Below, piece after piece: positions 2,750 through 4,674 of a stretch of DNA of 64,000 nt. The first letter of the stretch is position 1. Each line of letters starts with the position of its first letter. This stretch comes from Planctomycetota bacterium (GTDB taxonomy: Bacteria; Planctomycetota; Phycisphaerae; Phycisphaerales; UBA1924). The translations under genes were made by a program, and so were the position numbers. Under the pieces are notes generated by a model. It had not been told where the DNA came from. It saw nothing but the letters and a program-made list of their open reading frames with translations, and did not search any database. The stretch spans positions 558,001-622,000 of the forward strand of contig JBCBSM010000001.1 in NCBI GenBank assembly GCA_039819165.1, read 5' to 3'.

Positions 2750-2779
2750 AAAAAACGCCGACCCCGTGGGGCCGGCGTT
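2750..2779 (-). terminator. Intrinsic terminator upstream of the dehydratase
   Basis: On the minus strand a 12-bp stem (2779-2768 with 2765-2754) closes on a two-base loop and runs into six T residues. Position 2772/2761 is a G-U pair on the minus strand but an A-C mismatch on the plus strand, which supports minus-strand function. It ends 25 bases before the dehydratase start and follows the short ORF at 2858-2914. It could be the end of that small transcript or the terminator half of an attenuator. Confidence 0.8.
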
Positions 2780-2834
2780 ACGGGTTGCGTCCTGTGCTTC
2801 CGCAGGAGCCAAGCCCGCGCGAACGCCGCGCGGA

Positions 2835-2856
2835 GCCGGACCCCGTCGGGTCCGGC
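2835..2856 (-). promoter_or_regulatory. Perfect hairpin after the leader ORF; possible anti-terminator partner
   Basis: Minus-strand arms GCCGGACCC (2856-2848) and GGGTCCGGC (2843-2835) form a perfect 9-bp stem with loop GACG. It begins one base after the stop codon of the short ORF. Its downstream arm, extended to 2844, can instead pair with the upstream arm of the terminator (2776-2768) through 9 base pairs with one bulge, so hairpin and terminator could be part of a 1:2 / 2:3 / 3:4 switch. Confidence 0.5.
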
Positions 2857-2857
2857 G

Positions 2858-2914
2858 TCAGCGACGCAGCGTCCTGTCGTGGATCCTCTTGAGATCCTGA
2901 CTGAGATTCGACAC
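2858..2914 (-). CDS. 18-residue leader peptide candidate with a full-length Shine-Dalgarno site
   Basis: GTG at 2914 opens an 18-codon ORF, VSNLSQDLKRIHDRTLRR, ending in TGA at 2860-2858. Upstream on the same strand lies AAAGGAGGTGATCCAG, complementary to essentially the entire 3' tail of 16S rRNA; AGGAGG is seven bases from the GTG. The peptide is basic (four Arg, one Lys) and ends Arg-Arg-stop; it is not enriched in Thr or Ile codons as a classical ilv leader would be. It is followed at once by a stable hairpin and then by a U-tract terminator. It may be an attenuator leader for the dehydratase or a self-contained small-protein gene. I know of no matching family. Confidence 0.5.
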   Translation of the reverse strand: MSNLSQDLKRIHDRTLRR

Positions 2915-2930
2915 TGGATCACCTCCTTTC
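2915..2930 (-). promoter_or_regulatory. Exceptional ribosome binding site (complement of the 16S rRNA 3' end)
   Basis: The plus strand at 2914-2930 reads CTGGATCACCTCCTTTC, identical to the canonical 16S rRNA 3' terminus, so the minus strand offers about 13 or more contiguous anti-SD pairs, against 5-7 in other genes here. No other 16S-like sequence surrounds it, so it is a ribosome binding site rather than an rRNA fragment. Confidence 0.65.
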
Positions 2931-3163
2931 GCACGGGCCCGCCCGGCCGCCGCGCTCGGAGCAGCGCCGCCGGGCTCTTTTCCCGGGCACCGTCACGCCC
3001 GGGCTCATCGCCCGCCCAGGACACGCTCCCGGGCGGTCGTCGCGTCCGCTTCGCCGGGCCGCCGCGGGGTTCTCCCGAGCGGCCGCATGCGTGCGCCCCG
3101 CGATGCTCCTGTATCGATCATTTCGCGACCGATCCGACAGCGGATCCTCGTTCGTCGTCGTGG

Positions 3164-3361
3164 TTAGTCCTCGAGTTGGTCGAAGGACCCCTTGGCGGCC
3201 TCCCCATCCAGGTAGGCCTGGAAGTCGGCCGTCTTGTACGAGACGAAGCAGAAGACGTGGTGCAGCGTGACCCACTCCAGGTCCGAGGGGTCCTTATCGA
3301 GGTCCTGGCGAAGGCGATTGAGTTCGGCCAGCAGCTTCTCGGCCTTTATGGCATTGGGCAC
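3164..3361 (-). CDS. Small hypothetical protein, 65 residues
   Basis: A charged, probably helical cytosolic protein with the core EKLLAELNRLRQDLDKDPS and an aromatic patch, HHVFCFVSYKTADFQAYLDG. GTG at 3361 is chosen because GGAGG on the minus strand (complement of 3370-3374) is eight bases upstream. There is no signal peptide and no membrane segment. I do not recognise the family. It is divergent from the aminotransferase at 3463, with 101 bases between the starts, and lies upstream of the leader region and dehydratase on the same strand with a long structured gap of about 230 bases, so co-transcription with them is possible but not shown. Confidence 0.7.
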   Translation of the reverse strand: MPNAIKAEKLLAELNRLRQDLDKDPSDLEWVTLHHVFCFVSYKTADFQAYLDGEAAKGSFDQLED

Positions 3362-3446
3362 GCGTCGGTCCTCCGGAGGGTCGTGGACGAGAGTCCTTGG
3401 GCAGGGATGTCGGGCCGGCCGCGTTCGGGCTCCGGCAGGCGTGACG

Positions 3447-3452
3447 CTACGA
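3447..3452 (+). promoter_or_regulatory. Candidate minus-10 element of the dapL-like gene
   Basis: TACGAT ten bases before ATG 3463, which has no Shine-Dalgarno sequence. Same motif class as before oppA, rlmN and others in this window. Confidence 0.35.
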
Positions 3453-3462
3453 TCGCCGCACA

Positions 3463-4674
3463 ATGGACGCCACCGAAACCCTCTCGTCGCAGCGGCTGCG
3501 GGCTCTGCCCACGTACCTCTTCCACGCCCTCGACGAGGCCAAGGCCCGCCGCCGTGCCGCCGGGGGCGAGGTCATCGACCTGAGCGTCGGCGACCCGGAT
3601 GCGCCGACGCCCGAGTACGTCGTCGCCGCGATGGTCCGCGCGGTGCGGGACGAGGCCAATCATCGCTACCCCAATCCGAAGGGGTCGGCCAAGTTCCGGG
3701 CGGCGTGCGCCCGCTTCCTGGACCGCCGCTACGGCGTCACCGCCGACCCCGACCGGCACATCATCGCGTGCATCGGGTCGAAGGAGGGCATCGCCCACCT
3801 GCCGCTGGCGATCGTCGACCCGGGCCGCTCGGTGCTTCGGCCGAGCCTGGCGTATCCGGTGTACCACGCCGGCGCGATCCTGGCGGGCGCGGACCCGATC
3901 GCGATGCCGATGCGGCCGGCCTCGGGCTGGACGCCGATCTGGGAGGAGTTGCCCGCGGCCGATCTTGAGCGTGCGGCCCTGATGTGGGTGAACTTCCCCA
4001 ACAACCCGACGGCGTCGACCGTGGGCGTGGGCTTCTACCGGCAGGCCTACGAGTTCGCCAGCCGCCACGGCATCGTGCTCGCCAGCGACCAGGCCTACTC
4101 GGAGCTGTACTTCGAGGGCGATCCTCCACCGAGCCTGTGGCAGGCGGATGGGCTCGATCTCGAGCGGTCGCACGCGATCGAGTTCCACTCGCTGAGCAAG
4201 GCGTTCTGCATGGCGGGCTGGCGGATCGGCTTCGCGGTCGGCCACGAGTCGCTCGTCTCGGCGCTGGGCAAGCTCAAGGGGCCGATCGACATGGGACCCT
4301 TCAACGCCATCCAGGAGGCCGCCGTCGCCGCGCTGGAGAACTACGACCACCCCGACATCGCGGCGGTGCGGGACCGCTACCGCGAGCGTCGCGACGCGGT
4401 GCTGCCGCCGCTGCGGGCGCTGGGCTTCCAGGCCGACACGCCCGCGGCGGGGATGTTCGTCTGGGCGCGATGCCCGGAGGTCGATGGGGTGCCGCTGGAT
4501 TCGTGGCAGGTCGCCCGCGACGCGATGGAGCAGGCCGATGTGTGCCTGACCCCCGGCGCGGGCTTCGGCGAGGACGGCCGGCACTACGTCCGCCTGGCGC
4601 TCACGGTCGATCGTGAGCGGATCGTGAAGGCCATGGAGCGGCTGGGCGAGGTCCGGTGGGGCGCCTCCGTCTAG
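3463..4674 (+). CDS. dapL: LL-diaminopimelate aminotransferase-like, class I/II PLP aminotransferase
   Basis: A 403-residue fold-type I aminotransferase. Family features are HRYPNPKGSAKFR near the N-terminus, NFPNNPTASTVG for substrate carboxylate binding, SDQAYSELYFEG, and the PLP-lysine motif HSLSKAFCMAGWRIGF. The pattern best fits the LL-diaminopimelate/succinyl-diaminopimelate aminotransferase branch, which would supply meso-diaminopimelate for peptidoglycan and lysine. That fits the DNPR-type MurE encoded at 8.3 kb. Alanine or aspartate aminotransferase activity is the main alternative, as these enzymes are hard to split by eye. ATG 3463 has no Shine-Dalgarno site; TACGAT lies ten bases upstream. 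The gene is followed on the opposite strand by tRNA-Ala(GGC). Confidence 0.75.
   Translation: MDATETLSSQRLRALPTYLFHALDEAKARRRAAGGEVIDLSVGDPDAPTPEYVVAAMVRAVRDEANHRYPNPKGSAKFRAACARFLDRRYGVTADPDRHIIACIGSKEGIAHLPLAIVDPGRSVLRPSLAYPVYHAGAILAGADPIAMPMRPASGWTPIWEELPAADLERAALMWVNFPNNPTASTVGVGFYRQAYEFASRHGIVLASDQAYSELYFEGDPPPSLWQADGLDLERSHAIEFHSLSKAFCMAGWRIGFAVGHESLVSALGKLKGPIDMGPFNAIQEAAVAALENYDHPDIAAVRDRYRERRDAVLPPLRALGFQADTPAAGMFVWARCPEVDGVPLDSWQVARDAMEQADVCLTPGAGFGEDGRHYVRLALTVDRERIVKAMERLGEVRWGASV

Follow-up and report, generated by a model that had tools for sequence, protein, structure and literature searches.

Attenuators of the trp and tnaC type place a short open reading frame (ORF), with its stop codon beside RNA helices, ahead of an intrinsic terminator. 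We describe here an RNA from a 64,000-nt stretch of a Phycisphaerales genome (the window) that shares this arrangement but shows no conserved anti-terminator, no constant downstream gene, and, in the window's copy, no evident control codons. In Flavobacteriia, the rpsU mRNA senses the free anti-Shine-Dalgarno sequence, and its likeness to our RNA would lie in a strong Shine-Dalgarno (SD) sequence by which the anti-SD state of the ribosome is sensed, although the Phycisphaerales RNA contains no ribosomal protein gene and does not have a protein with a known role as its output. rnTrpL and Spot 42 are dual-function or translated small RNAs. Both, which are named in the accessible text of PMC10117765, resemble our RNA as small stand-alone RNAs with a short ORF, whereas the complementarity of the Phycisphaerales RNA to the 16S rRNA tail exceeds that of an ordinary ribosome-binding site in both length and conservation.

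A further parallel is the Rfam family CC2171 (RF01867), a Caulobacter sRNA, in which GAAAGGAGGTGATCCAGTG is followed by a GTG micro-ORF of about 20 to 26 codons and a terminator hairpin within one short RNA, although its ORF, helices, and upstream domain are unlike those of the Phycisphaerales RNA. In the accessible parts of the literature that we searched, CC2171 is mentioned with no function reported for it, and the site together with GTG turned up in one paper only, on insects. According to the accessible text of PMC4117421, 75.4% of Caulobacter genes have no SD site, and ribosome profiling in this organism found two predicted ncRNAs to be translated; CC2171 could be among these two. Extended SD pairing close to the start codon has been described in Staphylococcus aureus, and in E. 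coli, on the argument made in that paper, bS21 would stand in its way (PMC13009471, accessible text). The recurring module, a match to the 16S tail joined to a GTG micro-ORF, also underlies CC2171, and should its input be ribosome occupancy, it would open a direct way to study how bacteria gauge their free ribosomes. Such sensing would be of interest where most genes initiate without an SD site, as the accessible text of PMC4117421 indicates for Caulobacter.

Extent, fold, and distribution of the RNA

An initial annotation of window positions 2750 to 2930 had described, on the minus strand, a ribosome-binding site, an 18-codon GTG ORF, a hairpin, and a U-tract terminator. On re-reading that strand we recovered all four at the positions given in Table 1: the site, GAAAGGAGGTGATCCAG, is the complement of the genome's own 16S 3' end, and the ORF closes with a TGA at 2860-2858. 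Two elements had been overlooked, namely, a covarying helix that joins the end of the ORF to a downstream arm and the whole upstream half of the RNA. By comparison with relatives, the annotated interval is the 3' part of a larger, stand-alone structured RNA of about 350 nt, with transcription predicted to start near 3103.

Table 1. Features of the RNA and its downstream flank, in window positions
Feature	Positions	Strand	Basis
GATACA, putative -10 box of the promoter serving the RNA	3110-3115	minus	promoter-like pattern in relatives
Whole stand-alone RNA, ends predicted	2750-3103	minus	promoter-like and terminator positions; fold z -4.9
Upstream structured domain (model R2)	2938-3069	minus	R2 match in own genome
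Upstream hairpin with GACG loop	2982-3003	minus	covariation, 48 copies
Ribosome-binding site, with 17 nt of complementarity to the 16S 3' tail that extend to the first base of the start codon	2914-2930	minus	G.U-keeping changes in relatives
Micro-ORF of 18 codons, GTG start, TGA stop	2858-2914	minus	frame constraint across relatives
ORF-end helix, 5' arm (last codons)	2865-2872	minus	A1 columns 100-107
ORF-end helix, 3' arm	2823-2830	minus	A1 columns 152-159
GACG-loop hairpin just past the stop codon	2835-2856	minus	72.5% of cells paired; arms species-matched
Putative small 3' hairpin region (CTCCTGCGG..CAGGACGC)	2787-2810	minus	inspection of A1
Intrinsic terminator	2750-2779	minus	terminator-like site in 64/66 copies
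TACGCT, likely -10 of the dehydratase's leaderless promoter, outside the RNA	2730-2735	minus	box layout across loci

An alignment of the flanks gives the order of features as promoter-like site, structured upstream domain, binding site, ORF, helices, and terminator. The strict promoter pattern (TTGNNN-N15/19 and a -10-like box) was found in 35 of 52 relatives and is failed by the window's own copy, which has a weak -35. The terminator scan of 66 copies made no call in L010 and L109, the latter a partial stretch. Together, the promoter-like site, the RNA's own terminator, and the varied downstream neighbours mark the element as a separate unit.

The predicted fold of the 354-nt RNA beat all of 100 dinucleotide shuffles, and that of a 211-nt RNA beat all of 200 (z -4.7). 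In an alignment of 66 copies (A1), the ORF-end helix is paired in 93.4% of cells, with changes on both sides in seven of its eight pairs. When this helix and the GACG hairpin past the stop were taken jointly, three of five covariation measures were reached by none of 500 shuffles and the others by 1 and 7. The upstream GACG hairpin is paired in 97.4% of cells across 48 copies, again with seven of eight pairs changed on both sides, and none of 500 shuffles equalled its values on four of the five measures, while 3 of 500 did so on the fifth. When arms were permuted among 61 copies, those of the GACG hairpin past the stop (1:2) and of the terminator (3:4) both proved species-matched (0 of 2,000 permutations each). 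The ORF arm of the ORF-end helix is likewise species-matched (0 of 2,000), and the far arm is CGCAGCCC or near it in most aligned relatives. The sequence observation as a whole is more than chance, both in its fold against shuffles and in its recurrence across the order.

The upstream-half model R2, which contains neither the site nor the ORF, matched 127 of 251 genomes of the order, 125 of them once and two twice; the match in the window's genome, at 8.2e-12, is to a copy that is itself included in the model's alignment. The other 124 genomes gave no R2 match, and the RNA would be either not universal in the order or missed by the models. The downstream-half model R1 matched 58 of 298 genomes of the class, once each, and a DNA search placed the element in five of six other genomes of the genus, with short matches farther out. 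Of 301 genomes searched in the order, 93 contain the pattern AGGAGGTGATCCNDTG and none its reversed control, a few of the sites being unrelated as judged by long ORFs. An ORF of fewer than 30 codons, together with a motif of the GACGG type no more than 250 nt away, accompanies 72 of 76 distinct AGGAGGTGATCCAGTG sites.

For A1, 7 of 79 sites were skipped because no GACGG loop lay near the stop or the ORF was long (L004, L009, L035, L036, L040, L072, and L117), and 6 of the 72 sites kept were excluded (L048, L049, L052, L081, L100, and L126); the sites left out have ORFs of 9 to 23 codons in all cases except L036. A1 was collected largely via the exact site, and the invariance of site and start within it is therefore by construction. 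The bias-free test of these features used loci collected via the upstream domain (51 regions, two of which, L309 and L333, lie at contig ends and were unread). The site, the ORF, the hairpin, and the terminator described in the initial annotation all recur in relatives.

The RNA is conserved in a bacterial order, while an Rfam scan of the window at the models' own thresholds returned two tRNAs only and nothing at the RNA. We conclude that the order has here a genuine RNA that stands alone, and we found no family name for it. It is not tmRNA, since the genome's tmRNA (RF00023) lies at C1:653375-653723 and the sole other match, at 23.6 bits, is also elsewhere. Nor was a 6S RNA match (RF00013) found in genome or window, with a model that finds only 5 of 14 control genomes.

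The micro-ORF and its reading frame

In A1, the distance from start codon to ORF-end helix is 19, 22, 25, 28, 43, or 46 nt, that is, 1 modulo 3, in 65 of 66 copies, and the distance from helix to stop is 14 nt in 62 of 66. The exception to the frame, L084, carries a one-base difference and a slightly later stop. The stop codon itself varies (TAA 34, TGA 18, TAG 14), and the stop-to-loop distance falls in all three residues modulo 3. These comparisons indicate that the reading frame is under selection, with its stop fixed beside a covarying helix, and the micro-ORF is very probably translated.

Our tentative explanation, which we hold to be a little short of an even bet, is that a stand-alone structured RNA binds the 16S 3' tail, is translated over the micro-ORF, and takes a fold set by ribosome occupancy. 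30S subunits would bind at the match to the 16S tail, a ribosome would traverse the short frame and halt beside the helix made by the last codons, and the halted ribosome would open that helix. The passage or parking of the ribosome, not the peptide, would set the state of the RNA, and the RNA would report or tune ribosome availability in trans; we give somewhat less than even odds to occupancy setting the fold with an output that acts in trans. The comparative data lead to sharp predictions concerning the frame, the stop position, the helix, and the G.U pairing. An alternative offered in the initial annotation, a stand-alone micropeptide or an anti-SD-binding small RNA, came close to this explanation: the stand-alone RNA, the conserved site complementary to the 16S tail, and the frame-constrained micro-ORF all stood.

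It is also possible, though in our view rather unlikely, that the RNA is a small mRNA whose product, a micropeptide that usually contains Cys and may bind metal, is functional, with the RNA structure serving stability or control. The frame constraint would fit such a product, as would a DC[TMI][KR]GL[RH]-like core in many of the peptides, including those of loci found by the upstream domain alone, and the presence of at least one Cys codon in 59 of the 66 A1 ORFs. In two loci of one family the ORF is rich in Cys, mostly written TGC, and runs to 33 codons (L251) or 32 (L256), compared with about 12 elsewhere. At 32 of 76 sites, moreover, the upstream gene runs on the same strand and is related to a metal ABC permease, with one member matching Pfam ABC-3; this may be a sign of metal and not of ribosomes.

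Against the micropeptide, the letters of the ORF appear to be kept rather than the residues. Its Cys codons are TGT over TGC by 84 to 6 in the 66 A1 ORFs and by 47 to 3 in a further set, of 39 ORFs from the 45 divergent loci described below, against 1 to 21 in five window genes. Gly is encoded by GGG in 56 of 80 cases in A1 and in 41 of 49 in the second set, against GGC in 112 of 154 in the five window genes. The conserved GL of the peptide is encoded by GGGCTGCG, which doubles as a helix arm. The 7 of 66 A1 ORFs without Cys include the window's own and indeed all five of the window's genus in A1. Copies at the level of the class go down to 6 to 7 codons (VKGDKR, VKGGKH, and VTGGTKR), and of 20 more distant copies, 18 have ORFs of 6 to 13 codons by reading and two, L251 and L256, have 32 to 33. 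Given the bias in Cys and Gly codons, the position of GL on the helix arm, and the ORFs that lack Cys, we favor ribosome transit over the peptide as the selected trait; given the shared peptide core and the Cys-rich ORFs of L251 and L256, we retain the peptide reading.

Complementarity to the 16S tail

The genome contains the 13-mer AAGGAGGTGATCC just twice, at this locus and as the antisense of a sequence (L032) that we take to be the 16S 3' end, and the complementarity extends to the first base of the GTG. Among loci found by the upstream half without the exact site, 51 of 54 carry a GGAGGTG-type site in place (45 of 47 in one set and 6 of 7 in the next). The three that were read and have no site are L345, L353, and L349, the last of which is its genome's second match, a weak one.

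We tallied substitutions in 45 of the 51 site-bearing loci. In these divergent copies, the 10-nt core GGAGGTGATC shows 25 changes, 21 of which keep a G.U pair with the 16S tail, in a count that ignores kinship. Ten A-to-G and ten C-to-T changes, in GATC and so beyond the usual SD core, are the commonest, and the AG beside the start is often unpaired with 16S. Start codons in the same loci are GTG in 36, TTG in 5, and ATG in 4, from which GTG appears to be the preferred start, with others tolerated. The retained G.U pairs indicate that pairing with 16S is under selection, and the 16S tail is very probably the partner of the RNA. Across nine Phycisphaerales loci, the 110 nt that follow do not, on average, sequester the site (mean z 0.0), and z falls below -2 in one of the nine. 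Sequestration of the SD by a 3' CTCCT was a candidate that we rejected, with neither species matching (p 0.42) nor an average excess in those nine loci.

Such pairing would also suit an RNA that acts as a 30S sponge or antisense, whose long duplex with the 16S tail parks subunits for hibernation or quality control and whose micro-ORF merely lets active ribosomes clear the RNA; we consider this quite improbable. The complementarity does run beyond the usual SD core toward the start and is kept by G.U changes at GATC, and extended pairing of this kind is known in S. aureus (PMC13009471, accessible text). However, the last bases (AG) often break the pairing in divergent copies, and the frame and stop position are held more tightly than clearing alone would need.

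Neighbouring genes and similar modules elsewhere

A tnaC- or trp-like attenuator of the downstream dehydratase, as proposed in the initial annotation, is extremely improbable and was rejected on arm permutation, synteny, and a leaderless promoter box: 1:2, 2:3, and 3:4 pairings can be drawn in the window's genome, where 2:3 does exist (-15.9 kcal/mol), whereas across 61 copies 2:3 is not species-matched (own -7.78 against permuted -7.77 kcal/mol, p = 0.49), a dehydratase homologue (Pfam PALP) lies downstream on the same strand at only 9 of 76 sites, with varied ORFs otherwise, and a promoter-like box stands at the following start codon. Of the signs by which that annotation would have recognized a leader, a conserved ORF and covarying helices were found across relatives and a constant link to the dehydratase was not. 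It had correctly noted a -10-like TACGCT between terminator and gene; this box stands five bases before the dehydratase ATG (2735-2722). A TANNNT box 5 to 6 nt before the start codon past the terminator recurs in 10 of 12 loci, L010 and L086 being unscorable and the dehydratase linkage not being established at L086, and this layout suggests a leaderless promoter.

Other cis pairings that were tried fared no better: the nearest to support, an upstream segment with the 3' region, reached p 0.09, and the rest 0.30 or more. Among them, no alternative partner was supported for the helix arm that would be freed, upstream GGCTGGG giving p 0.98.

Several features of the neighbourhood may be recorded here. 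A small upstream protein (KAEKLLAELNRLRQDLDKDPSDLEW...; window 3164-3463, minus strand) belongs to a similarity cluster of ORFs at 20 sites and has no Pfam match. The Cys-rich ORFs of L251 and L256, along with the metal-permease-like gene often found upstream elsewhere, may hint at a metal link. In other lineages (L054-L056, L044, L047, and L038), the RNA follows an HD-domain gene (one member Pfam-checked) or an FtsK-like gene (by eye) instead of the metal permease.

At least 117 stretches with AAGGAGGTGATCCAGTG occur in named genomes, and an ORF of at most 33 codons follows in all but 3 of the 117 listed. Eighty titles, sorted by eye, are mostly Alphaproteobacteria and Phycisphaerales, and Krumholzibacteriia, Acidobacteria, and Myxococcales are also among them. 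When 15 loci were scanned with the CC2171 model, four reached its gathering score, all of them alphaproteobacterial (Bosea, Brevundimonas, Methylobacterium, and a Rhizobium MAG). Two Rhodobacterales loci, two Bradyrhizobium loci, four of the Krumholzibacteriia, Acidobacteria, or Myxococcales type, and L141 did not reach it; the ORF of L141 looks CC2171-like all the same. The S. meliloti SEP1 was considered as a CC2171 ORF and rejected, since according to the accessible text of PMC10117765 the validated GTG starters are SEP10 and SEP14 and SEP1 is acidic.

The window's RNA has the AAAGGAGGTGATCCAGTG module with a GTG micro-ORF and terminator, as CC2171 does. Against the CC2171 model it scored 27.1 bits, below the gathering score of 75, and 9 of 10 relatives scored 19 to 37 bits on the right strand, with no match in the tenth. 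Four non-alphaproteobacterial controls (Synechococcus, Thermus, Deinobacterium, and Thermotoga) gave equally loose matches, and the 27.1-bit resemblance is therefore weak evidence. In the reverse direction, the Phycisphaerales model gave 13 to 24 bits at best in 40 of 41 comparison loci, the exception being L126, a planctomycete; the site by itself may account for scores of this size, which leaves homology to the comparison loci unsupported. Homology to CC2171 beyond the site is thus supported by neither covariance model. The next best after L126 are mostly loci of the Acidobacteria or Myxococcales type (22 to 24 bits, E 3e-4 to 1e-3), and a distant relation to these is possible. The groups also differ in their folding, in that the RNA following the site in CC2171-like loci can pair with it (z below -2 in 20 of 43), in contrast to the one in nine seen in Phycisphaerales.

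We regard as doubtful, and on balance unlikely, the wider proposal of an as yet unnamed class of ribosome-sensing RNAs in Planctomycetota, Alphaproteobacteria, and some other phyla. Its members would read the 16S 3' tail with roughly 11 conserved bases complementary to it, and a throw-away micro-ORF, its stop fixed beside a helix, would convert free 30S subunits or initiation into a fold change that acts in trans. Extended pairing next to the start could make such an RNA selective for some 30S subunits, for instance those lacking bS21.

Three further sets of loci carry comparable modules. Loci of the Rhodobacterales type (L104-L106, L110, L112, and others) share the same site with an 18-codon ORF, VSRxxLERGVGT..., and a CAGCCC past the stop looks able to pair with a terminator arm, as in an attenuator; the two that were scanned had no Rfam match at gathering score. 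Those of the Bradyrhizobium type (L138, L145, L177, and others) have a near-constant ORF of 14 codons (..KRCHLAGIAR), and their RNA is able to pair with the site, averaging -16.7 kcal/mol and a z of -1.8 over 10 loci. Finally, L125, L137, L149, L162, and L196, the last placed here by its ORF, are of the Krumholzibacteriia, Acidobacteria, or Myxococcales type and combine the site with ORFs of 14 to 15 codons ending in ..EV(A/V).., possibly a further family.
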